From Thermoplasmatota archaeon (GTDB lineage: Archaea; Thermoplasmatota; Penumbrarchaeia; JASLWR01): a stretch of DNA of 64,000 nucleotides. Of the stretch, positions 1 to 20,370 are shown piece by piece. Under the pieces are notes generated by a model. That model saw only the letters and a program-made list of their open reading frames with translations. It was not told the DNA's origin and ran no database searches. How positions within the stretch are numbered: the first letter of the stretch is position 1; each line of letters begins with the position of its first letter. Location: the NCBI GenBank assembly GCA_030740765.1, contig JASLWR010000008.1, positions 1-64,000 on the forward strand. The letters run 5' to 3'. The position numbers and the translations under genes were made by a program.

Positions 1-1757
1 GTGGTGGACACCGGCACGTATACGTACTTGGATTGATTCTGTGTATCCAGAAGTCCCGACTGCTGCATATCGTTCCACCGCGAGTATTCCCCTTCCCATT
101 GCGCAGTGAAATCGGGTGAGTATTCATCCAGTTCCGATTGGTAAGATATCTCCTGTTCGTTGAATACCCGGTAAGCATCTTCCACCGAAATAATACGGTC
201 GGGATATCTTTCTCTCATCTTCTGCAAAGTAAGGCAAATACCAACAGCAGTATCACACTTTATAAGCCCGTACCCTTGAGCAAAATCCAGGGATCTCCCA
301 TTGGTTCCACGGACGGGCGTTTCCAAATTGGGAACGCCTTCACCAGTGTCCAGGAACATGGTTGACAACTCCATGATCTCTTCAATTTCATGAATCCTTG
401 TTTCGGGAGCGGAAGCCCAGTCAATGTCGCCGTATTCCTCGGTGCCGGACCAGTCCTCTCGAACCTCGCTCATGCCCAATGATGGACAAGCCTGGAACAT
501 CAAAGCCGCCAGACCCGATGCGTGGGGGGTTGCCATACTCGTTCCGCTAATGGCAAGATAATAGGGGTTGGGATTGTCACCCCTCATCTTATCAATAGCC
601 GATATTACAGTTTTCCTTGCATGAGACGACCATATCTTCACACCTGGGGCACCTACGTCGGGCCAGGTCTCTATTAGGTCGCTCTGCCCCCGAGACGAAA
701 ACGAAGCCATGGCGCTACCGTCGCGCTCAAGAGCCGCCACGGCTATGTTTACAGGAGTGTTTGCGTAAGGTGACGTAGTTATTTCCTGGCCATCATGATT
801 ATTACCACCGTCGTTTCCTGCTGCAAAAACACAGACCACGTTATTTTCATCGGCCAGTTTGTAGCATACCTGACTTATGGTATCCTGCGGATCCCATTTT
901 CTTCCGGAGGTACCCCAGCTGTTGGATACCACGCGGATATTATAGAGATTGTTGTTAGGCTGTGAGTTCTCATATACCCACTCCAAGCCCCCGAGCACAT
1001 TGGTAAGAGTTATACCAATATCGCCTACGCTCAAACCTATCAAATTAGCTCCGGGAGCTACACCTCTCCGGGCTCCTGCGGAGGCGTCGCCGTTGCCTGC
1101 TACGGTCCCGGCGCAGTGGGTGCCGTGGCCGTAGGATGTGTCGGTATTGATCCTTTCGTGCCAAGGGCCGCCGGGAACATCGGATTTCAGGTTCACGATG
1201 GTTTTTTCTCCGTAATCGAGATCGGGATGATCCGCATCGATTCCCGTATCCAGTATGACAACTGTAATCCCGGAACCGTCGATCTGGTCATCACGGTGAT
1301 AGATCCCCTCTTCCATGACCCGGGTATCCCATACATTTGTAGCGTTAATGGTTTGAAGACTCACTTCCATCATCAACTCCACTCGGGTATCGTTCTCGAT
1401 CCAATCCACGAACGGTAGTGATGCTAGATTCGCTATGGCAGAAGCGGGTCCCTCTAGGGCAAGGGCTGGTACGACGTGAAAGCTCGCTGTCATGTGGAAA
1501 CCCATATTCTCGAATAACTCTTCGTCAAAAAGGACGGAATCTCCCCTGAAGCGCACGAGGATATTTACCTCGGTATCGTCATCCCAATCATCCATCAAAT
1601 TTTGCAAATCGGAATTGATAACGGACCTAACAATGGGCCCGGTGATGGAATATGTATTATCGTCCCTCAGCTTGTGAGTCAGCACAGACCCGCTGGCGGA
1701 TGCTGTAAGCATGAACATTATTATCGTTATTATCAAGCTAGATATGTTTCTACGCAA
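1..1757 (-). CDS. Subtilisin-like (S8) serine protease, secreted; C-terminus runs off the window start
   Basis: Reverse-strand reading from TTG at 1757 gives MRRNISSLIITIIMFMLTASA (signal peptide), then VVILDTGIDADHPDL (Asp), GHGTHCAGTVAG (His) and GTSMATPHASG (Ser). The frame is open to position 1 and is missing from the ORF track because it is truncated and has a non-ATG start. Confidence 0.93.
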   Translation of the reverse strand, partial: MRRNISSLIITIIMFMLTASASGSVLTHKLRDDNTYSITGPIVRSVINSDLQNLMDDWDDDTEVNILVRFRGDSVLFDEELFENMGFHMTASFHVVPALALEGPASAIANLASLPFVDWIENDTRVELMMEVSLQTINATNVWDTRVMEEGIYHRDDQIDGSGITVVILDTGIDADHPDLDYGEKTIVNLKSDVPGGPWHERINTDTSYGHGTHCAGTVAGNGDASAGARRGVAPGANLIGLSVGDIGITLTNVLGGLEWVYENSQPNNNLYNIRVVSNSWGTSGRKWDPQDTISQVCYKLADENNVVCVFAAGNDGGNNHDGQEITTSPYANTPVNIAVAALERDGSAMASFSSRGQSDLIETWPDVGAPGVKIWSSHARKTVISAIDKMRGDNPNPYYLAISGTSMATPHASGLAALMFQACPSLGMSEVREDWSGTEEYGDIDWASAPETRIHEIEEIMELSTMFLDTGEGVPNLETPVRGTNGRSLDFAQGYGLIKCDTAVGICLTLQKMRERYPDRIISVEDAYRVFNEQEISYQSELDEYSPDFTAQWEGEYSRWNDMQQSGLLDTQNQSKYVYVPVST

Positions 1758-1887
1758 TCTATGACCCCCTAAACAACAAGAGAATATCATTCTCCCTTAA
1801 TTCATTTTAGGGATTAAAATTTCAATTGGCATTTGGAAATCTCGCTTGAATTGGAATGGTATAACCTTAATTATCTTCTGTACCATA

Positions 1888-2364
1888 TCAAGCCAGCCTC
1901 TTCCTTACCGGACTCCAGAAATTCTCTTTGCACCCGGGACAGTATTTCGCTGTGGGTGATAGTATGTCCTCGCAATACGGACATACGAAGGGATCTGCCT
2001 CAAGCTCTTCGCCGCATTTGTAGCATTTCACCTGCGAGGGCAGGACCTGGGTCGAGCAGGACGGGCACCGGAATTTTCTATCCTCGAAAACCGTGGCGCA
2101 CTGCGGACAGGCGTTATCATAGATGCTGACCTCTGCACTGCAATCCGGGCAAAGATACCTCTTTGTACCGTAATCGGCATTCAGCTCGAACTCTTCGGCA
2201 TAATTTCGAGGTACCCGGGTGGGTCTTCTATTTTCAGGTACTCGTTGATTGTACCATTTAAAAAAGACCAACAATATCACTATCAAAACTAATAAAATAA
2301 TTATGATCGTTATATACCGGGTCTCCGTATCCATTTCAACAACCAAAGCAATCAGTTTCACCAA
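1888..2364 (-). CDS. Membrane-anchored multi-zinc-ribbon protein
   Basis: N-terminal TM (YITIIIILLVLIVILLVFF) followed by CPDC..CPQC, CPSC..CYKC and CPYC..CPGC. Confidence 0.75.
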   Translation of the reverse strand: MVKLIALVVEMDTETRYITIIIILLVLIVILLVFFKWYNQRVPENRRPTRVPRNYAEEFELNADYGTKRYLCPDCSAEVSIYDNACPQCATVFEDRKFRCPSCSTQVLPSQVKCYKCGEELEADPFVCPYCEDILSPTAKYCPGCKENFWSPVRKRLA

Positions 2365-2520
2365 TGTAATCTCAATTAGTCCGAAAAGTGGTAGTAGTGC
2401 TCAACCTTTATCTTTTTTACGGCAAGCTCCGACGTAATTGACGGCCTAAAAGCTAAGACGGGATCCGTTGAATATAACGGTTTTCTGCCCGAAGGAGGGA
2501 TACTGAATTATCCGGGTCGA

Positions 2521-5500
2521 TCAGGTTCTCAATTTAGCCAATATATCTTCGAGCTTCTTCGTGGTATCGGCGACATTCTCCACTTTATCAGGGGATGTTA
2601 TTGCGGGTGCCGGTGAGCTTATGACCGGGGATGTTCTCGCTATAACGGGTGCAGTACCTGACGAGAGAGGGGCGGTTTTCGCTACAACCGGTGTTGTAGT
2701 GCTAACCGAGACTGGAGCAGTTCGAGCGATAACGGGCGTGGCGCCGGAAGCCGGAACGGGAGAGGTCTTCGCCACCATGGGTGTTGCACCAACCGGGACA
2801 GGGGAGGTCTTTGCTACCATGGGTGTAGCTCCGCTAGCCGGTGTTGGTGAGGTCTTCGCCACTCCGGCGATGGGAGCGGTACGCTTGATCGATGATAAAA
2901 GTCCCTGAATATCCACTCCCTCCTTAGTTGCTTCCTCCGGTGAAATGGAGGCAGGGGGCAATGCCATCTGTACTTCACCCGCAGGCACGCTTGTTGTCTT
3001 GGGTAACGTAACATCAACCGCAGTCGGTCCCTGGGGTAGGGCTTGGGTTGTGGACACGATTCTCGGAGCTCCTGGTTGCATACCAACCGCAGCGGGTTGG
3101 AATTGGTCCTGCATCATGGGCTGGGTCCCGGGTGGAATGAAATAATCCGCCTGTTGCTGTTGCGGGTAAAAGGGTTGCTGGGGGTATCCATTAAATCCAG
3201 GAGCCCCGTACCCTTCCATTCCACCATACATGGTTTGCATCTGGGCTTCGAATCTGGACCGGTTCAGCTGGTTCAGATATTCCATGTTCTTCCCTTCTTC
3301 CATTTCCCGATCATCGCTTGAATCTTCTATGTCCATTTCGTCACTTATAAATGAATCGTCTTCGGCATCGTAATCTGCGGTGGCATCGTAGACCAGGCTC
3401 TCAACGTTATATTTTTTCTTGAGAAAGATAACGGAGAACACCGTGATCATGAAGGCAAGAAAGATGATGAGAAAGATGAATACATAATCGAGTGAGGATA
3501 TTCCCATTTCATTTGTTTTATTCTCATCAACCTCAATTTCATGCTCTATCACGCTGAAATATCCCTCTCCCTTATCATTCTCTGGATATGCATCCTTTAT
3601 GCCGGATATCTCGGATGTGATCAGGAAATCACCTGGTTTGGAAAATGTATGATTGAATTTCACACGTACATAAGAGTTGCTTTCCATATATGTGATGTTG
3701 GTGCGATAGATAAGTTCTCCGCCTGATCTGATATTCACCCACAGTTCGCTGCCGAACTTCTCCGAATCAAAGAACTGGGCACCCTTGTTAAGAACGTCCA
3801 GGTAAAGACCGAGAGGCAGGTTCTTCTCCACCATATAGATATCCTTTGCAATGTCGTTCTCGAGATACAGATCGGTCACTGCAAATTCGAATTCGACCAC
3901 TCTTATATTTATAGTGGTCTTCTTAACCAATTTAGCTCCCACGGTGATCCAACCCTGTACCTCGAAGGTGTACCCCTTTAGGTCAACTCCCGTCGGTGGT
4001 TTAAAGGAAAGCGCCATCTCTTTGGATTCCCTGTACTGAAGAAAGAGATTTTTCTGGCCCAGCAATCCCCACTTTTCGCCGAAAATATCGAAGGACAGAG
4101 TAACGTCGCCGTTGCAGGTATTATGAACTTTTAGCTTTACAAGGGTTTCACCCTGTGGTATTGCATCATAGGTCCGGTTTGACTCTTCAAATGAAAAATC
4201 CAGGGTTTCTGCCACGGTCAATGAGAACGTCTGCTGGAAGGAAATATTTACATTTACCATGGAACCCAGTTTCAAAACGAATTCATATGATTTGGCTGCC
4301 TGATCCAGAGGGATCTTAACGTAGAAAATTGGTTCGGTGGTATAACCAAAATCAACTGTGAATTGCGGTTCGGGTATGTAAACCCAATCGGGATATTCGC
4401 ACTCCACCTCCCAGGTATAGGTATCTTCAATATTACCAATATTACGGAGCATAATGACAAAGGACACGTTATCGCCTATGAAGCCGACCTTGGAGGATAC
4501 GTTACATGTTATTTCGGCATTTCGTATCGGGATCACGTTCACTGTAAATTCCACAGTGTCCTGGATCTTCAAGGGTACGTCCGAAAGCACGTCAATGGTG
4601 AATTTATATTTTCCAACCGGAGTGCTCGGGGGCACCCTTATCTTGAATTCGATATCAGCCTCCAGGTCCTGTGGAAGCCCTCCCTCCCTGATGTTAGAGG
4701 AATCCAACCATGTTTCCCATTGACTGGGCTGGTTCGGGCTGTCAGATACGACGAAAGTTCCCGGATTGCCGACCATATCATCCAGATCGTTACCCGTGTT
4801 GATTATGGTAAAGGTGAATGTCGAATAACCCCCGGGCTGACCATCTCTTTCCGGGATCAAAGTCTCGTCCCTGACTACATCGACATCATAGATATGGGTT
4901 ACAATGGTTTGTACGAAACCCATTTCTTTCTGCCCACTATCCGAATCTATAGGTTGGGCTACAAGGGTTGTAATATGACTGAAACCCGCATCCGCCTCTG
5001 CCGGGAGATAGACTATCACCGGTATAACAACCGTACGACCCATCTGTATATGTAGTCGGGCCTGAGTATCATCTACCAGCAAAGCTACCCATTCACCGTG
5101 GGAGCTGTCTATCCACAGGTCATAAATATCATCCCCGTTTCCAAGGTTCTGGATCTGGAACTCGTAGAGAACATCCTCTCCCGGCAGCTTGTACTGCGCC
5201 TCAGGGGTCTTTATATCGATCCTGTGGAGGAGAAGAACATCAATGTTAAAGGTCAATGTAGAACGGTTGGATGAGAGTTTCGATCTCAAAGTGACATCCA
5301 GGGCGTATTTTCCCACCATGGCACTGTAAAGGTCACCTACCACGATACGAACTGTCATCTTCCTTATTTTCTTAGCATCATCTTCGGGGCTTGAACGTGG
5401 TGGTATCCGGGGAAACTTATCCGGATAGAGTATTATATTCCATCCTTTAATGGGAGTGCTGTCCACAACATAGTCGTCATAGAAGTTACCCTCGTTGGTA

Positions 5501-5769
5501 ACTGTACAATTAAAGGTGACCAGATCCATTGGGTAAGCCTGCTTAGTCTGGGGTTCAGGTTCCGGTTCGTTACAAACAAGCTTGGGCGTGAACTGCGGCC
5601 CCCTGGATGATTGAAGCGCATCATCTACAGCCTCTTTGTCATTCACATCAGCTTTAGGTATTCTCTCATCATCGGCAAAACCGGAAAAAGGATTCAACAG
5701 AACTATTGTTATCACAAACATAAATACTATGGCTTTAAAATGACCTTTCATTTCCAAAATCAAAATCAT
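2521..5769 (-). CDS. Large surface protein: signal peptide, NEW3/CARDB-like repeats, TM, Pro/Thr/Ala repeat-rich cytoplasmic tail
   Basis: 1082 aa ORF; repeated PGxxVxYxFxIxNxGN motifs; TM SLDYVFIFLIIFLAFMITVFSVIFL; tail with repeated A[TP]P(M/V)(V/I)A[KR]T[SA]PV. Confidence 0.8.
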   Translation of the reverse strand: MILILEMKGHFKAIVFMFVITIVLLNPFSGFADDERIPKADVNDKEAVDDALQSSRGPQFTPKLVCNEPEPEPQTKQAYPMDLVTFNCTVTNEGNFYDDYVVDSTPIKGWNIILYPDKFPRIPPRSSPEDDAKKIRKMTVRIVVGDLYSAMVGKYALDVTLRSKLSSNRSTLTFNIDVLLLHRIDIKTPEAQYKLPGEDVLYEFQIQNLGNGDDIYDLWIDSSHGEWVALLVDDTQARLHIQMGRTVVIPVIVYLPAEADAGFSHITTLVAQPIDSDSGQKEMGFVQTIVTHIYDVDVVRDETLIPERDGQPGGYSTFTFTIINTGNDLDDMVGNPGTFVVSDSPNQPSQWETWLDSSNIREGGLPQDLEADIEFKIRVPPSTPVGKYKFTIDVLSDVPLKIQDTVEFTVNVIPIRNAEITCNVSSKVGFIGDNVSFVIMLRNIGNIEDTYTWEVECEYPDWVYIPEPQFTVDFGYTTEPIFYVKIPLDQAAKSYEFVLKLGSMVNVNISFQQTFSLTVAETLDFSFEESNRTYDAIPQGETLVKLKVHNTCNGDVTLSFDIFGEKWGLLGQKNLFLQYRESKEMALSFKPPTGVDLKGYTFEVQGWITVGAKLVKKTTINIRVVEFEFAVTDLYLENDIAKDIYMVEKNLPLGLYLDVLNKGAQFFDSEKFGSELWVNIRSGGELIYRTNITYMESNSYVRVKFNHTFSKPGDFLITSEISGIKDAYPENDKGEGYFSVIEHEIEVDENKTNEMGISSLDYVFIFLIIFLAFMITVFSVIFLKKKYNVESLVYDATADYDAEDDSFISDEMDIEDSSDDREMEEGKNMEYLNQLNRSRFEAQMQTMYGGMEGYGAPGFNGYPQQPFYPQQQQADYFIPPGTQPMMQDQFQPAAVGMQPGAPRIVSTTQALPQGPTAVDVTLPKTTSVPAGEVQMALPPASISPEEATKEGVDIQGLLSSIKRTAPIAGVAKTSPTPASGATPMVAKTSPVPVGATPMVAKTSPVPASGATPVIARTAPVSVSTTTPVVAKTAPLSSGTAPVIARTSPVISSPAPAITSPDKVENVADTTKKLEDILAKLRT

Positions 5770-6200
5770 CCCTCCTTTTTATATAATCTATTATATTGAT
5801 CGTGTCCCGCCTCATACTGGTATATTAAATGAGATATGGGAATATAATTATTTAAAGTGATTGTTGAGAATCGTCCGGGAATATACGAGAGCCAATCTGG
5901 GTTTGTGTTTCGTCTTTTAAACATTATTGCCTACCTCCATAATATCAGTTCTTTGGGACGCCGGCCCGTGATCGTTGGGGGGAACCCTCCGAAAGCTAAG
6001 CTGATAAAACATCCATGGTTATCTACAGATATATAAATGTTGAAGGTCTTATGACAATTTTTGACAGGTGGGGTGGAAATTTGTTATTGACTTAGATTAT
6101 TTGTGTGAATCGATTCAGCCCAGGCAGACTCTTAATATCTTGAACAGGACAAACCTTAATCGACATATCTGAATCGAAACAGTTCATCGATTAAAAAACA

Positions 6201-7202
6201 TTATAAACCCTTCTGATATCTTCGGTAGATGATCCGATCAACCTCATTTTCTATCATATCCGGTATGAACATCTTTTTCTTAGTTGGGCGATAGACATTC
6301 TGATTCGATTCGGTTTTCGTTTTCTCAACAAATCCTCTCTTCACCAGTGTTTTCAACCGGCTATCAAGGTACTTTCTCGGATAGAACTCCCTGATCCTGT
6401 TGTTGAGCCGATCATAGTAGTAACCGTCCGATATGCCAAAAACATCAGCAATGTCATCTCTGGTTACCGGATTCTTGCCGTAGTACTTCTCGATTTTTGT
6501 TATGATCAGGAATACCTGCTGGAGAACATCCTTGTTCTTTACCCTCATTTCCAGGATCAATGAGCTGAACTCCCGAAAGTAATAACGAGGGAATTTCGGT
6601 AGATATCCTCTCTTAACTAGTGTATGGTTATCATTCGTAATCGGATAACAGCAATTATCAAATATTGTCTCCAATTTTTCCACGACGATATCTTCCTTAT
6701 CGAGAAAACTCCGAGCCGTCTCATATCCGTCTTTACGGATTATTTCAGCCGATGTGAATCCCGTTCGGTCAAGAAATATCGGCGCGCTCTTGATACGATC
6801 CAAAAGGCTATGAATAAGTTGCTTTTCGTCATTTCCCTTTCCTATCGTTTGGCCAGTCGTTCGCTCTTCCGTCACCCTTATCGAAGCACCGCCCAGACCT
6901 ACGAAGGTCTTGCTGTTGTTGCCGTATTTCCTGATGTATTTTCCGGAAAAAGTGTTCTTGAGAAATGCCTTCATCTGATCCTCGGTCAAACCATAGGCCT
7001 TCCTGAGTAGTCGTTCACGCTTGTTGAACTTTTTCAATTCGACTGGACCCTCCAGAAGTAAAAACCCCACCAGGGTGCAAAGTATCTCCTCTTCATTTCC
7101 TCTTGCCGGTTTACCCCGGAGATTCGTTTTGTTCTTTGAGCGCCAACTCTTTTTCATGCTAGGGTCTCCCTGGTTCCTGTAAGGGAGCCTGTCATCAACC
7201 AT
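6201..7202 (-). CDS. Hypothetical protein with C-terminal winged-helix-like region
   Basis: 333 aa ORF; C-terminal VTRDDIADVFGISDGYYYDRLNNRIREF...LVKRGFVEKTKTES resembles wHTH; an internal ATG (MKKSWRSK) may be the true start. Confidence 0.5.
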   Translation of the reverse strand: MVDDRLPYRNQGDPSMKKSWRSKNKTNLRGKPARGNEEEILCTLVGFLLLEGPVELKKFNKRERLLRKAYGLTEDQMKAFLKNTFSGKYIRKYGNNSKTFVGLGGASIRVTEERTTGQTIGKGNDEKQLIHSLLDRIKSAPIFLDRTGFTSAEIIRKDGYETARSFLDKEDIVVEKLETIFDNCCYPITNDNHTLVKRGYLPKFPRYYFREFSSLILEMRVKNKDVLQQVFLIITKIEKYYGKNPVTRDDIADVFGISDGYYYDRLNNRIREFYPRKYLDSRLKTLVKRGFVEKTKTESNQNVYRPTKKKMFIPDMIENEVDRIIYRRYQKGL

Positions 7203-7313
7203 TCTCCGGATCTGGCCTTTTTAATATCCGGAGGACTGCGAACATTTCCTTTCATTGTTTCTCCTGGTGCAATGGCGTTCAATAGCTACCATTATTCATA
7301 TTTCAAAGTGTTT

Positions 7314-9131
7314 TTAATTCATTCCGAGAATTGAAAATTCATTATCTTTAGCGTAATAATGAGGAATGTCACGAATGGATTTTGTGTAAATATGATCATT
7401 TGCGATTAAAATTTCAAAATTCCTCATAATAATTTTTTCATCTAATTTCATTCCATTTTTAATAAGTCCCATCCTCTCAATTAGGTCTTCGAAGGTGACC
7501 CCGTTCTCGTTCATGGATACTATCCCCAAAACGGAATACTTCGTTAGCATGTTTTTGTCGCGGATCGTCTTCCCTTTTATAACTACCCCCGTACCAAGAA
7601 GAATAACCAAAATAAAAATACCGATTATAAGACTAAGGATTTGCATGGAAAAGAGTGCATCATCTTTTTCAACCAAGTCTCTCCCTGTAGACACCGGTGA
7701 CAGGGAAAAAGTACTCAGAACGTTGCCGCCCAAGTCCCTGTATGAAAGGATTACCGCATCACTCTCATCCTTCACAACCTTTGTCCAATCGATTTCAAAC
7801 TCCGTGCGATCCGAATCTCCAAGAGGTATGTCTTTCATGACCACCGTCATGGAATTCCCATCAGGCTCCATCTTTGTAACGGCGAAATCATATTCTTTAT
7901 CATGGAATCGAATGATGTAATTATCACTTTGATTCCGTGTCATTACCATATCGGAGGCGCTAATTTGATACGATTTTTCTTGAAAAAAGCGGGTGAACAA
8001 CATACTGTAGGATTTATCGAGATGAGGCCATTCGATTATGGATTTATGTTGTTCCAAATCAGCCTCGAAGCTCATATCTTCTAGGACGATCCGGGCCCGA
8101 TCTTCTCCGTGGACCTTCATGATTATAAGAGAATATTTTTCATTAGAAATATCATCGATGAAGCCCTCGTCATTCAAGCGAACGCTCATATCCAATTGTG
8201 ATGTACCCGATAGGATGAATCTTTCCCAGAATACATCATCCGGTAGCGAAGGCCATGAATTCTGATTATCATTCAAATTTCCCGAAGGCACAACTGCGGA
8301 TTTGACGATTTCCCCCTCGATCTGCAATTCATACGCTTCCCCAGAAAACAGGATCTCGAAATATTCATTGGTCGGAAAGGGATTCTCCACATTTATTTTC
8401 ACCGTAATGATCTTCTCGAGAGCGATACCCGTGATTAGTTCGCCGATAATGAGGAATGAATACTCTTTCTGCTCGATACCCCAGGGTGGGTTGAAGGAAA
8501 TTATCAATTCTTCTACCTCTTCGATAATGACAAAAAGATTTCTATGCTCAAGTATTCCCCAAGGTTCCCCGAAGATACGAAATGTGAGCGGCAGAGCGGC
8601 ATTTCCGACATTCGCAACCCTTAATGGTAGAAGGATTTCACCTCCCATCACAGCATTATAGGTGTCATTCAAGACCGATAACGAGAAATCCAGAGTCTCA
8701 GTCACGTTTACCTTGAAACTTTGCTCAAAGGAGGTATTCCCATATCCTTCCGAGAACAATGTGAATAGAAAATCATATGTGTCTACAGGGGCGTTCATCG
8801 GTACTCGAACGTTGAACAACAACTGATATGTATCACCGAAATCAACAGTGAACGTAGGATCTCCCAACCATATCCAGGATGCCTGGTCGCTCTCCACCCC
8901 CCAATTATATGTGGCTCGGATATTTCCCGTATTGTTTAACATTGCAGTGAAGGAAACGTTGTCCCCAATATTGGCGTCCTTGGATGTTTCTTTGATCTCC
9001 ATCTCTATATTGTAGAAAGTAAATACATTTAAGGTAAACGAAACCTTGTCCTGATGCGTCAGGGGAATATCGCTGTATATGTCCATAACAAACTCGTAGA
9101 CCCCCGCAGGGATCAAGGGGGGGATCCTCAT
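7314..9131 (-). CDS. C-terminal part of a surface receptor-like protein (ectodomain, TM, cytoplasmic winged-helix-like tail); split from 9128-10279 by a 1-nt frame break
   Basis: Collinear with residues ~380 onward of the 2521-5769 protein; TM ILSLIIGIFILVILLGTGVVI; tail KYSVLGIVSMNENGVTFEDLIERMGL...EILIANDHIYTKSIRDIPHYYAKD is wHTH-like. Confidence 0.7.
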   Translation of the reverse strand: MRIPPLIPAGVYEFVMDIYSDIPLTHQDKVSFTLNVFTFYNIEMEIKETSKDANIGDNVSFTAMLNNTGNIRATYNWGVESDQASWIWLGDPTFTVDFGDTYQLLFNVRVPMNAPVDTYDFLFTLFSEGYGNTSFEQSFKVNVTETLDFSLSVLNDTYNAVMGGEILLPLRVANVGNAALPLTFRIFGEPWGILEHRNLFVIIEEVEELIISFNPPWGIEQKEYSFLIIGELITGIALEKIITVKINVENPFPTNEYFEILFSGEAYELQIEGEIVKSAVVPSGNLNDNQNSWPSLPDDVFWERFILSGTSQLDMSVRLNDEGFIDDISNEKYSLIIMKVHGEDRARIVLEDMSFEADLEQHKSIIEWPHLDKSYSMLFTRFFQEKSYQISASDMVMTRNQSDNYIIRFHDKEYDFAVTKMEPDGNSMTVVMKDIPLGDSDRTEFEIDWTKVVKDESDAVILSYRDLGGNVLSTFSLSPVSTGRDLVEKDDALFSMQILSLIIGIFILVILLGTGVVIKGKTIRDKNMLTKYSVLGIVSMNENGVTFEDLIERMGLIKNGMKLDEKIIMRNFEILIANDHIYTKSIRDIPHYYAKDNEFSILGMN

Positions 9132-10279
9132 CTGAAGGAAATGTCCGCCGCGTGGCCCTTTGCTAATCCGGTATCATTCACAGAGGAACTATCAACATAA
9201 GTGTTCCAGTTCACAGGAGTAGCGGGGGATCGGGATAACAAGAAGGTCCCGGTTGAACCGATGACAGCATCCAGGTTGTTCCCCCTATTAACGATCTCAA
9301 AAGCGAATGTGATTTCATCACCAGGTATCCCGCCCTTGGTCCTTTCCAGCTCGTTTTGCTCCACCTCTATTCTCGTGATGTTACCGATTTTCGTCCCAAC
9401 GTAACCTCGCTCCACCTGAGGAGTGGGCTCTCTCTTCAGACTTGCTGCAAAGGTAGTCCGATGGACATAACCCGCATCCGCATTTCCCGGAATGAACACT
9501 ATTACCGGTGCGACCACGCCATTGCCAATATGGAGATTAATTGTTTCCATGGAGTCGTCAACAAGTTTGACTACCCAGAGGGGATCCGAAGACTCGACCC
9601 ATATATCGTATGTACTATTGACATTTCCAGTATTCCATATCTGGAATTCGTACATTACTACCTCACCGGGCAAACGGGATTTCTGTTGAGGGGATATTAT
9701 CTCAACCCTATGGAGTGGTAGGATTTGAACGGTAAAGGTTAAAGTGGAGGTGTTGAGGGACAGCGAAGAACGGAGCGTTACTTCAATGGAATAATTGCCT
9801 ACGTTGGCATTGGATATGTCTCCAACTACGATACGAACCGTTAAGCTTTTGATTTTCTTTGAATCATCCTCAGGGCTCGATAATGGCGGAATCCGAGGGA
9901 ACTTTTCAGGATAGAGGATTATGTTCCATCCCTGAATCGGAGTGCTGTCCACAACATAGTCGTCATACATATTACCCTCGTTGGTAACGGTACAGTTAAA
10001 CGTGACGAGGTCCATAGGATAAGCCTGCTTCGTCTGAGGATCGGGGCCAGGTTCGTTACATACAAGCACAGGTGTGAATTGCTGCGCTCTGGTGATCCCA
10101 TGGGAATCATTTCTGGAACTGGCATTATCGGGATCATCAACCGCTGCTTGTACTCCATCACGGTTCACAAATATAAGCGAGCCCGGTAGAAGGAAAATTA
10201 CGGTTAAAAAAAGGATCATTAGCGTTCTGGGAGCTTTTATTCCTGTGAACAATTTTTTGCCTCCATATATTATATTCAT
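9128..10279 (-). CDS. N-terminal part of the same surface receptor-like protein; paralog of the 2521-5769 N-terminus
   Basis: Shares (N)QTKQAYPMDLVTFNCTVTNEGNxYDDYVVDSTPIxGWNIILYPxKFPRIPPxSSPEDD with 2521-5769; ends at TGA overlapping the downstream ATG (ATGA). Confidence 0.75.
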   Translation of the reverse strand: MNIIYGGKKLFTGIKAPRTLMILFLTVIFLLPGSLIFVNRDGVQAAVDDPDNASSRNDSHGITRAQQFTPVLVCNEPGPDPQTKQAYPMDLVTFNCTVTNEGNMYDDYVVDSTPIQGWNIILYPEKFPRIPPLSSPEDDSKKIKSLTVRIVVGDISNANVGNYSIEVTLRSSLSLNTSTLTFTVQILPLHRVEIISPQQKSRLPGEVVMYEFQIWNTGNVNSTYDIWVESSDPLWVVKLVDDSMETINLHIGNGVVAPVIVFIPGNADAGYVHRTTFAASLKREPTPQVERGYVGTKIGNITRIEVEQNELERTKGGIPGDEITFAFEIVNRGNNLDAVIGSTGTFLLSRSPATPVNWNTYVDSSSVNDTGLAKGHAADISFR

Positions 10280-12898: not shown

Positions 12899-15568
12899 TT
12901 AGGAATAATTATCCATAACGTAATCCCTGCACCCGTCACACCAGTAACAGTTGTGTTCAGGATAGAATTTTGAAATCTGCCCGCAGCGGTTACAAAGCGG
13001 TGCAAGCGAAATTATTGGTATAGCTCGATTTACATTTCCAGAATAATTATCGGATACCGATTGCGATTGTTCAAATGCAACGGAAATCGGTATATTCCCA
13101 CTCTTCGGCGCATGATATGTGATATCGGAAAACCGGGACTGTGATCCGTTATTATTCATCCGGTTCAAATCATCCCTTTCCTCGTGAACATATTCTTCGC
13201 AGCCTCCGCACCACCACATACCATGCTTGTCGATGAAGAGAAGGGGAGAGCTGCATTTTCGGCATTTATAGGACTGAATGTGACCGCCAACGTCTGCCGT
13301 TTCTTCATAATTATCCGTGTCATCCCGCCCCATCCGGGAAAATACCACAAACAGTGTTACAATCACTGCTATAGTGATCACCACAACGATTGTACCCATC
13401 AGCCATCCCGACACACCGCTCTTACTCTCGGTTCCACCCTCGCCGCTTCCACCATCGTCCTTGCCGGTATCAGTTTGTCCCGAATCGTCGTCGGAATCAT
13501 CATCGCCAGTTCCGTCATCATCATCCAACTGGTCGTCATCGTCCCCGGCAGCATCATCGTCTTCATTACCATCATCCTCATAATCATTATCTACTACCCC
13601 GGATGCACCGGGGAGAGTAACATGGATAATCATGGTCTGGGTAATCGGGTCTACAATATTACCGTCCGTTATAGACAATAACACCGTGTAATTTCCACCT
13701 TTCTCATAAGTATGATTGGCGTATCTTCCATCAACAGTTCCCGTATTATCACCGAAATCCCAGCTGAACTTGATGGAATCACGGTCAGGATCCGACACCT
13801 GAGGTGCCGTGAAAAGCACGGTCAGGTTGTTTTCGCCCGGCTTTTCGGGGTCCGCATCCACTATACTGTAGAAAAAAATATCTTCCGGAACCGGCGGATC
13901 GTTAACGTTCTCCACAGTGATGGTTATGTTGGAATAATCCCGGGCCATACCGTCGTCCACCCAGAATGCAATTTCATAGGTACCAATTAAATTTTCGCGA
14001 CTGGGGTGAAAAAAGAAATCACCGGTGATCTCATCCAGGGAAAAATCGACACCACTTGAAATATCCTTTATCGTCATACTGATGTTGGTATGGAACGTCA
14101 GAACATCAAGGGGATCGAGATCGGTGGCGGAAAGTGTAAGATTGAGATAATCATACTGGAAAACGGTTTTATCGCTTAAAGTAAGCAGTACGGGATCATC
14201 ATTTATTTTGGTAACGATAACTCTTATTTTTTCTAGATCGGAGTATTTCGTACCGTCCTTGATCTTGATACCCACATATTCCACGCCGTACCAGTTCGCC
14301 GGGGAAGATAATTCCAGAATATCACCGGGCAAAATATTTGCCTGAACGTGCTCGGTAGGTTCCAGGTGATAGGTGAGGTCCACGTTGCTGTCGTCAACAT
14401 CATGGGCGTAATCGTCGAGGTCGAGACTGCTATCAGTTCCTCCTTCCCCAAAAGTGACATCAGGAAGGTCATTGAAGTATGGGGGGTCGTTCACCGGGGT
14501 TACCGTTACCCGAATGTCCTTCGCTGCGGCCTTTACACCGTTAGAGGCACTGAAGCTAACCGTTGTGTTGCCGTACCAGTTCTTTTGAGGTATGAAGGTG
14601 ACCAAACCATTGTCATCCATGGTCACGTTCATAAGCTCGGTAGTTTCCACTGTATACGATAGGTTACCATCACCGGAAAAGATTTCTTGGAGGTCGATAC
14701 TGTCGGAATCCACGCCGTCCTCCCTCATTGTAAAATCGAAACTTTCGCGGTTCACGGACGGACCGTGAACAAATGTTGTGGACGACAGCTCATAGACGGT
14801 TTTCAATTCCCCGTTAACGTAAGATTCCATCTTCGCATACCATCCCATTGCATCGTCGAAATACTGGAGGGAATAGCTGTTCAGATCACTCTGGGTTCGC
14901 AGTTTCATGATGGAAAAGTTCCCCGCAGGGACCGTTACCGTGTCTCCCGAGATGCAGGTGTAACTGCTGTTGTAGGAATGATCGCCGTCGCTGTAATGAG
15001 GATTTCCACCTACTAAACCGGAATTCCGATAATAATAGCTCTGGGACGCGTTCCATGATTCTTCAGGGAGGATGGGATAATCCATCTGGTCATTTGGAGG
15101 TTTATAATAGGAATAATAGTTCAGATGATAGTTGGGTCCGATACTGGTAGCGGAGGTTTCCACTGCGGCCTTGTCGGACGATCGGTAATAATTGGTGGAA
15201 TTGTAATAATAATAACCGTCCGATACGGGGAAAATCCCGATCCAGGAGCTCTGGCTGCGTCCGGCCACTCCGTAAACATTATAGGTCCCCTGAGGCGTTG
15301 TCACGGTTGTGAGGTTCATGACCTCGTAGCTGGCCCAGTACGAATAAGAACTGTAGAGGGATTCGTCGTAAAGCGTCTGTGTGTAATTAAATCGGTCGCC
15401 GATGGACCATACCGGGTATGACGATCTGTCGCGACCAAAAGCTCTCAGAGTATGTTTCCCGGATAACTCAATAGAAGAATGATTTGTAGAATTACCCACT
15501 TGGAGCTGAAATAATAGTGACGAAGTGGCCAACAACAATAAGGTAAACAATACCAATGTTCTACGCAT
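12899..15568 (-). CDS. Surface protein with Ig/cadherin-like and PKD-like domains, Asp-rich linker, TM and cytoplasmic zinc ribbons
   Basis: Signal peptide; VTPVNDPPYF / ITVENVNDPP repeats; PKD-like KFSWDFGDNTGTVDGRYANHTYEKGGNYTVLLSITDG; poly-Asp stretch; TM; CRKCSS..WWCGGC and CNRCGQ..YWCDGC. Confidence 0.8.
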   Translation of the reverse strand: MRRTLVLFTLLLLATSSLLFQLQVGNSTNHSSIELSGKHTLRAFGRDRSSYPVWSIGDRFNYTQTLYDESLYSSYSYWASYEVMNLTTVTTPQGTYNVYGVAGRSQSSWIGIFPVSDGYYYYNSTNYYRSSDKAAVETSATSIGPNYHLNYYSYYKPPNDQMDYPILPEESWNASQSYYYRNSGLVGGNPHYSDGDHSYNSSYTCISGDTVTVPAGNFSIMKLRTQSDLNSYSLQYFDDAMGWYAKMESYVNGELKTVYELSSTTFVHGPSVNRESFDFTMREDGVDSDSIDLQEIFSGDGNLSYTVETTELMNVTMDDNGLVTFIPQKNWYGNTTVSFSASNGVKAAAKDIRVTVTPVNDPPYFNDLPDVTFGEGGTDSSLDLDDYAHDVDDSNVDLTYHLEPTEHVQANILPGDILELSSPANWYGVEYVGIKIKDGTKYSDLEKIRVIVTKINDDPVLLTLSDKTVFQYDYLNLTLSATDLDPLDVLTFHTNISMTIKDISSGVDFSLDEITGDFFFHPSRENLIGTYEIAFWVDDGMARDYSNITITVENVNDPPVPEDIFFYSIVDADPEKPGENNLTVLFTAPQVSDPDRDSIKFSWDFGDNTGTVDGRYANHTYEKGGNYTVLLSITDGNIVDPITQTMIIHVTLPGASGVVDNDYEDDGNEDDDAAGDDDDQLDDDDGTGDDDSDDDSGQTDTGKDDGGSGEGGTESKSGVSGWLMGTIVVVITIAVIVTLFVVFSRMGRDDTDNYEETADVGGHIQSYKCRKCSSPLLFIDKHGMWWCGGCEEYVHEERDDLNRMNNNGSQSRFSDITYHAPKSGNIPISVAFEQSQSVSDNYSGNVNRAIPIISLAPLCNRCGQISKFYPEHNCYWCDGCRDYVMDNYS

Positions 15569-18483: not shown

Positions 18484-19140
18484 TCAGTCTTTGCGGTTTC
18501 TGCCATCAAGAGGCCTATATAGATAATATGTCGCGCGACCCCTCCCCTCCTTTCCAATGAGGTTGCATTGAGATAAATAATCCAAATCTCTCCCCAAAGT
18601 GGGTTTCAGGATGTGGTCAAGGCTTCGCGCCACCTCGTTGCTGGTGATCTTCCGGTTCTTATTGGCCCAGAAATACTGTAAAACTTCGCTCAAACGTTTT
18701 TTTCTTTTAGAGGTTAGACCTTGAACCCGTTCAAAGGAAACCGTTGGGCCTTCCGGACTCATAACGATATAGAGACCTTCGAGATCGGCGGCCGAGCCCA
18801 CCTCCTTTCCAATAGCAAGCTTTTCAACAGGAGTAGACTCCCGAACGGTGAAAACCGGATGAAAACCGTCATGGGGAGCCAACATCACGTCCATGGCTTT
18901 CCTGGGAAGATCATGAATAACGCCGGTTTTGAGCTCCATATCCCCCAATCGGTTCTTCACGATGGAAATTACCGAAGAGATAGTTTCGGGATCTCCCTTG
19001 AACACTATTGCCACTTTCCCCTCACCCAGGAAATATCTTCCCACAAGAATGATCTTAGTTTCGCTCAACAGCGTACCCGCCGCATTCAGTGCATCCAGAA
19101 AGCTAGTGGATTCCAGTATCGCTATTGATTTCTTAGACAT
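18484..19140 (-). CDS. BMC-domain-like protein with C-terminal winged helix
   Basis: Residues ~5-80: SIAILESTSFLDALNAAGTLLSETKIILVGRYFLGEGKVAIVFKGDPETISSVISIVKNRLG aligns without gaps to the BMC (PF00936) pattern GxIExxxxxxAxxAADxMxKxAxVxLVGxxxxGxGxxxxxxxGDxxxVxxA. The C-terminus (RLSEVLQYFWANKNRKITSNEVARSLDHILKPTLGRDLDYLSQCNLIGKEGRGRATYYLY) is wHTH-like. Confidence 0.6.
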   Translation of the reverse strand: MSKKSIAILESTSFLDALNAAGTLLSETKIILVGRYFLGEGKVAIVFKGDPETISSVISIVKNRLGDMELKTGVIHDLPRKAMDVMLAPHDGFHPVFTVRESTPVEKLAIGKEVGSAADLEGLYIVMSPEGPTVSFERVQGLTSKRKKRLSEVLQYFWANKNRKITSNEVARSLDHILKPTLGRDLDYLSQCNLIGKEGRGRATYYLYRPLDGRNRKD

Positions 19141-19332
19141 GAATTCGCCTGTTATACCAAGTATTATTCCCCTTTGTTAACGACCTTATTCAAGTTCTAT
19201 ATTATGATTTTATCTATGTGCGCTTAAATTTCTGAAAATCATGATGTTACAAGCGAATATTTTTAGTAGATTGGCGGGAATTAACGTATACGAACTTTCG
19301 AAATTACGCACCCTATCCAGAGAGGTATGCAC

Positions 19333-20370
19333 ATGGGACTTTTCAAGAAAAGCGGATCAAGAACCGTAATGTGGCCTGAAAATGAAAAAGCAGATCAGTT
19401 GGTGTTCAAGTGCCCCGAAGCGGCACACGCCGGAAATCTGCTTGTAGTGAGAGGGAATGAATTCGCCGTTTTATTTCAATACGGTGCGGTAAAACAGGTT
19501 TTTTCCGACCCCGGCCAGTCAACTCTTCCTACGGACGGTAACGTCTTTTTCGTATCCAAACAAAAGTTCGAGGGGAAGTTCGGTACCAAGCAACCCCTGA
19601 CCTTCCATGATGCCAGGTTCGACATGGTACAGCTTCAAGCATTCGGCGAGTACAAATGTAGGGTTGCCGACCCTGTGAAGTTTTTAAACGAGATAGGAAT
19701 GGATAGACGGAGTCTCACCCCGCAGGATATGGCTGAGATAGTGCGTGATGAGGTGGTCATGGCCCTCAACCAGGCCCTTGGTTTTATGAAAAAGAAGGGT
19801 ATGGCCGTAACACAGATCCCACAAAAATTGAAGGCGATCGGAAACGTTACAGTGAAGGCGGGGAAAAGGTCATTCGAGGACATGGGAATGGTGCTTACGG
19901 AAATATCGGAACTGTACATCAACCCGCCGAAAAAGGTAAAGGATGCGATTCAGGAGGTATCGACCATATCAGCCTTCACGGACGAGCAGATATCGAAAAG
20001 GACGAAACTGGCCGCCGGGGACGCCATGAGGGATGCCGCCCGGTCCGGGGGTACTGTTTCCATCGGTAGGATAGGCGATGAAAGTAATGTTACCATAAAG
20101 GATAGTGTTGTACAGCGCTCGAACATCGGTGGTGGGGGAGGCGGAGGAGCTAGCGGTGAAACCCACATACAGGACAGTGTGTTGACTCGAACCAATGTCG
20201 GTGGAGGCGGCGGAGGAGCGGCGGCCTGCCCCAACTGTGGTGGGAGCATTCAGGCGGGGTGGATCGCCTGTCCAGCATGCGGTGAGAAACTGAAACAATC
20301 TTGTCCCGGCTGCGGTGCGGATATTCAATCCGGGTGGGTGGCCTGCCCGGCTTGTGGAAACAAACTTTAA
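19333..20370 (+). CDS. SPFH/Band-7-like (YdjI-type) protein with C-terminal double zinc ribbon
   Basis: MGLFKKSGSRTVMWPENEKADQLVFKCPEAAHAGNLLVVRGNEFAVLFQYGAVKQVF; Gly-rich DSVVQRSNIGGGGGGG linker; CPNCGG..CPACGEKL and CPGCG..CPACGNKL. Confidence 0.8.
   Translation: MGLFKKSGSRTVMWPENEKADQLVFKCPEAAHAGNLLVVRGNEFAVLFQYGAVKQVFSDPGQSTLPTDGNVFFVSKQKFEGKFGTKQPLTFHDARFDMVQLQAFGEYKCRVADPVKFLNEIGMDRRSLTPQDMAEIVRDEVVMALNQALGFMKKKGMAVTQIPQKLKAIGNVTVKAGKRSFEDMGMVLTEISELYINPPKKVKDAIQEVSTISAFTDEQISKRTKLAAGDAMRDAARSGGTVSIGRIGDESNVTIKDSVVQRSNIGGGGGGGASGETHIQDSVLTRTNVGGGGGGAAACPNCGGSIQAGWIACPACGEKLKQSCPGCGADIQSGWVACPACGNKL

Follow-up and report, generated by a model that had tools for sequence, protein, structure and literature searches.

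We report a 218-residue archaeal protein in which a shell-type domain of the bacterial microcompartment (BMC) family is followed by a linker and a winged helix (wH), and which has a full-length paralogue inside a shell gene cluster of the same genome. That genome also holds a complete shell and enzyme locus of the sugar-phosphate-utilisation (SPU) type, and archaeal marker genes lie on the same contigs as the BMC genes. The fusion of a BMC domain to a helix-turn-helix (HTH) module is already known from EutK; what is less expected is the archaeal context and the complete BMC system. The reading we favour, tentatively and at a little short of an even chance, is that the protein is an EutK-like, BMC-derived accessory component that links a compartment, or its own oligomer, to DNA in an archaeon equipped with a complete SPU-type system.

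Architecture of the BMC/winged-helix protein

The gene (Table 1) lies on contig C147, within the window, by which we mean the whole 64-kb stretch of DNA analysed. Its coordinates and sequence agree with an earlier, sequence-only reading of the window, and the frame is intact over 218 codons and both domains. That reading had proposed an N-terminal BMC fold and a C-terminal winged helix arranged as in EutK, and this much is borne out by sequence matches in the PDB, by fold matches and by the paralogue on contig C73. The significant PF00936 match that it had called for was not obtained, the Pfam match to residues 5-65 (E 0.012, 16.0 bits; 18.3 bits in the genome-wide search) falling under the gathering cut-off of 24.5 bits; the predicted fold is nonetheless of BMC type.

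Table 1. Coordinates of the gene, its domains and motifs, and the shell loci found elsewhere in the genome
Feature	Coordinates	Strand	Basis or content
BMC/winged-helix gene	18484..19140	(-)	ATG start, 218 aa; full-length paralogue G000:C73:29850-30506, E 4.3e-17
BMC (PF00936-like) domain, aa 5-86	18883..19128	(-)	Pfam, PDB phmmer and Foldseek
Pfam PF00936 match proper, aa 5-65	18946-19128	(-)	E 0.012
aa 22-26, G-T-L-L-S, equivalents of PduA edge Asp22/Lys26, here Gly22 and Ser26	19063..19077	(-)	alignments
G-E-G pore-loop motif, aa 39-41	19018..19026	(-)	alignment
Acidic linker, aa 90-139, pI 4.8	18724..18873	(-)	sequence charge and model
C-terminal winged helix, aa 140-218, pI 10.2, wing motif GRGRATYY	18487..18723	(-)	36% identity to wH of C73 paralogue
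SPU-type shell locus	L015 (G000:C119) 670-9795		complete gene set
Second shell cluster, C73	L016 (G000:C73:15001-35000) 13808-15509		BMC-P, diverged PduT-like BMC-T and BMC-wH paralogue in a row

Several weaker lines of evidence point the same way. The CsoS1 model of NCBIfam matches the protein weakly (E 0.0033), the top phmmer match in the PDB is a tandem BMC-H fusion, 6ner (E 1.3e-5), and almost all of the 48 PDB matches listed are BMC proteins. An AF2 model of the protein made without an alignment was poor (pLDDT 45), and the best 50 Foldseek matches to it in the PDB were all BMC shell proteins, the best with E 2e-3. Modelling of the BMC segment with PduA as the sole other row gave a pLDDT of 67, a predicted secondary-structure order of E-H-E-E-H-E and 182 Foldseek matches at E<=1e-3, of which the 50 listed were all BMC proteins; this second fold test is not independent, its alignment having contained PduA, and model confidence was low to moderate in both. 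A Pfam match to DUF1827 (E 0.003, 18.3 bits against a cut-off of 23.4) was set aside as noise.

The strongest evidence for the predicted BMC domain is the C73 paralogue, which aligns with residues 1-209 of the window protein at 29% identity (E 4.3e-17) and passes the Pfam cut-offs both for BMC (2.2e-15, 56.8 bits) and for HTH_DeoR (PF08220; 3.2e-5, 24.0 bits against 21). At the level of sequence, its Pfam matches settle the architecture of the window protein as BMC domain, linker and winged helix, and the likeness in architecture between the two predicted proteins is well beyond chance.

The two winged helices are 36% identical, with wings reading KEGRGRATYY and KVGRGRATHY, and both are basic (pI 10.2 and 10.5), as is the C-terminus of EutK (10.0). 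The low-confidence model of the window copy shows two long helices and then a two-stranded wing; a beta-hairpin is predicted, again at low confidence, at about residues 123-136 of the linker. EutK_C (PF16365) gave no Pfam match to the window protein, whose winged helix resembles regulators of the DeoR and ArsR types. Matches of a wH profile in the PDB were marginal, and no convincing third copy was found in the genome.

The residues at the edge of the BMC domain bear upon what the window copy may do. In PduA, Lys26 and Arg79 control hexamer-hexamer tiling and touch the conserved Asp22 (PMC4139245). By alignment the window protein has Gly22 for Asp22 and Ser26 for Lys26, with the arginine at residue 80 falling near Arg79, and so does not keep the conserved BMC-H edge set of Asp22, Lys26 and Arg79; in the C73 paralogue Asp22 and Lys26 are retained but Arg79 has apparently gone, and the BMC-H protein encoded on C119 has all three. 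Since two conserved edge residues are lost, the window copy is probably a poor facet tile, if it tiles at all. The K26A variant of PduA still makes layered sheets in vivo, though not nanotubes (PMC4139245), so that such a loss weakens tiling and does not prove it gone. Position 29, which we had considered as a further lost edge residue, is uninformative, for it varies among normal tiles (Asn in PduA, Arg in EutM, Lys in the C119 BMC-H) and is Lys in the window protein. The pore-loop motif aligns as G-E-G in the window protein, G-S-G in PduA and G-G-G in both the C119 BMC-H and the C73 paralogue.

Shell loci, gene setting and archaeal host

The genome searched comprises 3.59 Mb in 158 contigs, at 93.7% completeness and 1.8% contamination. 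Profile searches across it found strong PF00936 domains on contigs C119 and C73 and four PF03319 pentamer genes, of which C119 has three and C73 the fourth; within the 64 kb of the window neither profile revealed a second shell gene, in accord with the sequence-only reading. That reading had gone on to infer repurposing of the fold from the lack of a shell system, and had itself named a full shell operon elsewhere in the genome as evidence to the contrary. Such an operon was found, in the complete SPU-type locus on C119, together with the C73 cluster and its BMC-wH paralogue, and the inference as stated falls. Repurposing of the window copy in particular is possible, because this copy is genetically separate, strongly diverged and devoid of the Lys26 and Asp22 equivalents.

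The C119 locus reads, in order, CcmP-like BMC-T (NCBIfam 1.3e-78), an unassigned protein, BMC-P, an acylating-type aldehyde dehydrogenase (PRK15398 above cut-off), an RnfC-like protein, PduT-like BMC-T, BMC-P, triosephosphate isomerase (TIM), RpiB (PF02502 9.1e-55), BMC-P, BMC-H and DeoC (PF01791 8.1e-14; TIGR00126 deoC 5.8e-89, above cut-off). Every SPU subtype shares two enzymes, DeoC (pfam01791) and RpiB (pfam02502) (PMC8217296); here both occur alongside BMC-H and BMC-P genes, the combination that we took as the mark of an SPU locus. The likeness to SPU loci extends to the acylating aldehyde dehydrogenase, the CcmP-like and PduT-like BMC-T proteins and the three BMC-P proteins; the locus differs in that no PduL (PF06130) was found in the genome by profile search and in that other contigs carry the genes for the BMC-wH proteins. 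Four of its proteins (aldehyde dehydrogenase, the unassigned protein, DeoC and TIM) bear N-terminal amphipathic-helix extensions, and these predicted helices suggest cargo targeting and a working compartment. The presence of such a locus on an archaeal contig is more unusual than the window gene itself.

The C73 cluster lies in the interior of its contig and contains no enzyme genes. Just upstream (L016 12308-13556) is a sulfotransferase-like protein, by eye apparently split into two adjoining ORFs, and about 6 kb downstream (L017 1422-2237) is a ParA/MinD-family ATPase, CooC-like by eye, for which there is no evidence of a role in positioning compartments. The window gene shares a contig with neither shell locus and is, as had been thought, an isolated shell-type gene. 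A satellite BMC locus is defined by an incomplete set of shell genes, contiguity of those genes and another, non-satellite locus in the genome (Axen et al. 2014, PMC4207490); with its single shell-type gene and the complete locus on C119, the window gene fits this definition if the sub-threshold PF00936 match is accepted.

The immediate neighbours of the window gene are pdxS and a divergent SPFH gene, and there is no eut operon. The link to pdxS is weak, the pdxS sites of other genomes of the class differing in neighbourhood. The SPFH/Band 7 protein (19327-20370) has a double zinc ribbon and two glycine-rich stretches, each preceded by a motif of the form DSVVQRSN / DSVLTRTN, and a similar string, RDSVVQRSNIG, occurs in an ORF on C73 (L016:2431-4278). 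A large, secreted-looking protein elsewhere in the window (12899-15568) appears, by eye, to have a transmembrane segment and, at its C-terminus, two motifs resembling zinc ribbons.

The host appears to be a genuine archaeon, each of the three BMC-bearing contigs carrying archaeal marker genes: MCM and DUF424 near the window gene, Orc1/Cdc6, RadB, archaeal type II GAPDH and Lsm on C73, and aIF2-alpha and an archaeal PAC2 protein on C119. A 16S fragment matches the archaeal SSU model. BMC domains were found in one of 12 genomes of the class and, above cut-off, in one of 390 of the phylum, which suggests that the BMC genes were acquired from bacteria. The same rarity within the class, and an assembly of 158 contigs at 93.7% completeness and 1.8% contamination, could be taken to mean that the BMC genes come from a bacterial contaminant binned in error and that their host is not archaeal. 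We consider contamination unlikely, and a binning artefact of this kind very improbable, given the archaeal genes on all three contigs, the homologues in 11 of the 12 class genomes (its own counted) of the gene directly after the C119 locus, and the similarity in G+C (0.445-0.474 over the stretches compared) and in tetranucleotide profile. In tetranucleotide usage the BMC region of C119 correlates with the window at 0.55-0.70, the lowest value being that with one third of the window, and with E. coli at 0.45.

No orthologue of the window protein was found outside its own genome, including in scans of genome contigs with a two-protein alignment and with the C73 paralogue, from which the window's own or near genomes were possibly left out. 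Scans of viral contigs returned nothing but part of a bacterial pdu operon, on a single contig, and tblastn against plasmids returned a match to the BMC part only, over 26% of the query, from Enterococcus raffinosus.

Accessory component or regulator

The closest known parallel is EutK, in which a single BMC domain is likewise joined by a linker to a basic C-terminal domain of HTH type, and whose BMC domain is 41% identical over 58 residues to that of the C73 paralogue. EutK differs in carrying PF16365 where the paralogue has a DeoR-type winged helix; the window copy is far more diverged in its BMC domain, having lost the Asp22 and Lys26 that EutK keeps, and its gene is archaeal, with no adjoining eut locus. 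With BMC-H tiles of the PduA/EutM type the window copy shares the modelled fold and about 20% identity, and it departs from them in its additional winged helix and in its lack of two conserved facet-edge residues. DeoR regulators have a winged helix N-terminal to a sugar-phosphate-binding domain. The C-terminus of the C73 paralogue scores above the DeoR cut-off, but in the BMC-wH proteins the winged helix lies C-terminal to the BMC domain.

When eutK is deleted, Eut compartments become static and polar, and EutK has been proposed to act like ParB, as a nucleotide-binding protein, through its positively charged tail (PMC12487888). The BMC fold of the window protein would most likely oligomerise, or dock onto or into a shell; its basic winged helices, of which a hexamer would have up to six, could bind DNA, to judge from fold and charge; and the window protein or the better-preserved C73 paralogue may hold the compartment to the chromosome or set its position there, as proposed for EutK. 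The window copy would then be a relocated, faster-diverging duplicate and a minor or solitary component. This accessory role draws on the EutK phenotype as precedent (PMC12487888), on the BMC domain and fold of the window protein, on the paralogue that sits with BMC-P and PduT-like BMC-T in the C73 shell cluster, on the complete C119 locus with its DeoC, RpiB and four proteins bearing cargo-type helices, and on winged helices as basic as the EutK tail. It is weakened by the sub-threshold BMC match and the missing Lys26 and Asp22, with which shell docking may have been lost, by the separation of the gene from both shell loci, by a winged helix that PF16365 does not match and that resembles DeoR/ArsR-type regulators, by the failure to find an orthologue outside the genome, and by EutK itself, which is monomeric in vitro (PMC12058022).

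The main rival, put forward in the sequence-only reading, is that a repurposed BMC fold has no role other than that of an oligomeric regulator of transcription or a sensor of sugar phosphates, with a small ligand in the acidic GEG pore and a winged helix directed at, for example, its own gene, the SPFH gene, pdxS or the SPU locus. PdxS uses ribose-5-phosphate and glyceraldehyde-3-phosphate, and it is suggestive that these are metabolites handled by RpiB, DeoC and TIM of C119; the isolation of the gene, the two lost edge residues and the DeoR- and ArsR-like winged helix also fit a regulator. We nevertheless think this rather unlikely. A paralogue of the same architecture is encoded within a shell cluster, so that the BMC-wH architecture was probably not born as a stand-alone regulator; other genomes of the class do not share the pdxS neighbourhood; and no upstream motif common to the window, C119 and C73 rose above shuffled sequence (6 shared 12-mers against 3-15 in shuffles). 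More unlikely again is that the protein is simply a minor component of the shell, encoded by a satellite locus, with a winged helix that faces lumen or cytosol, interacts with proteins or captures cargo and has no function on DNA: one shell-type gene with a complete locus elsewhere suits the satellite definition (PMC4207490) and EutK is reported to be shell-associated (PMC12487888), but the strongly basic winged helix with its conserved GRGRAT wing suggests nucleic acid, and the window copy lacks the edge residues. Least of these is the chance of a decaying, non-functional duplicate of the C73 gene; the strong divergence of the BMC domain and the missing orthologues would suit decay, against which stand a 218-codon frame unbroken across both domains and a wing motif and wH core conserved with the paralogue.

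A wider scenario, which we regard as doubtful, is that the archaeon obtained a complete SPU microcompartment from a bacterial source and either evolved or retained a pair of BMC-wH proteins, of which the window copy left the shell to become a BMC-fold DNA-binding regulator or nucleoid tether, coupling sugar-phosphate levels or compartment position to the chromosome.

A possible extension of microcompartments to a second domain of life

Published papers place BMC proteins outside the archaea, with 'none in archaea' detected (PMC5683377) and BMCs 'found only in bacteria' (PMC6620236), and the SPU catalogue spans 26 bacterial phyla, the word 'archaea' being absent from its main text (PMC8217296). 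We found no report of an archaeal BMC locus in the literature searched, preprints and most subscription journals lying outside its scope. One candidate, a 'pduA' of M. smithii (PMC10939349), proved to be a predicted annotation and not a BMC locus.

If the complete SPU locus, with its cargo-type N-terminal helices, does belong to this archaeal contig, BMC organelles would extend to a second domain of life, and the locus would offer a case for studying the transfer of organelles between domains. The two BMC-wH proteins, for their part, may provide a second system in which to test the role of an EutK-type DNA-binding tail, whether in positioning or in regulation.
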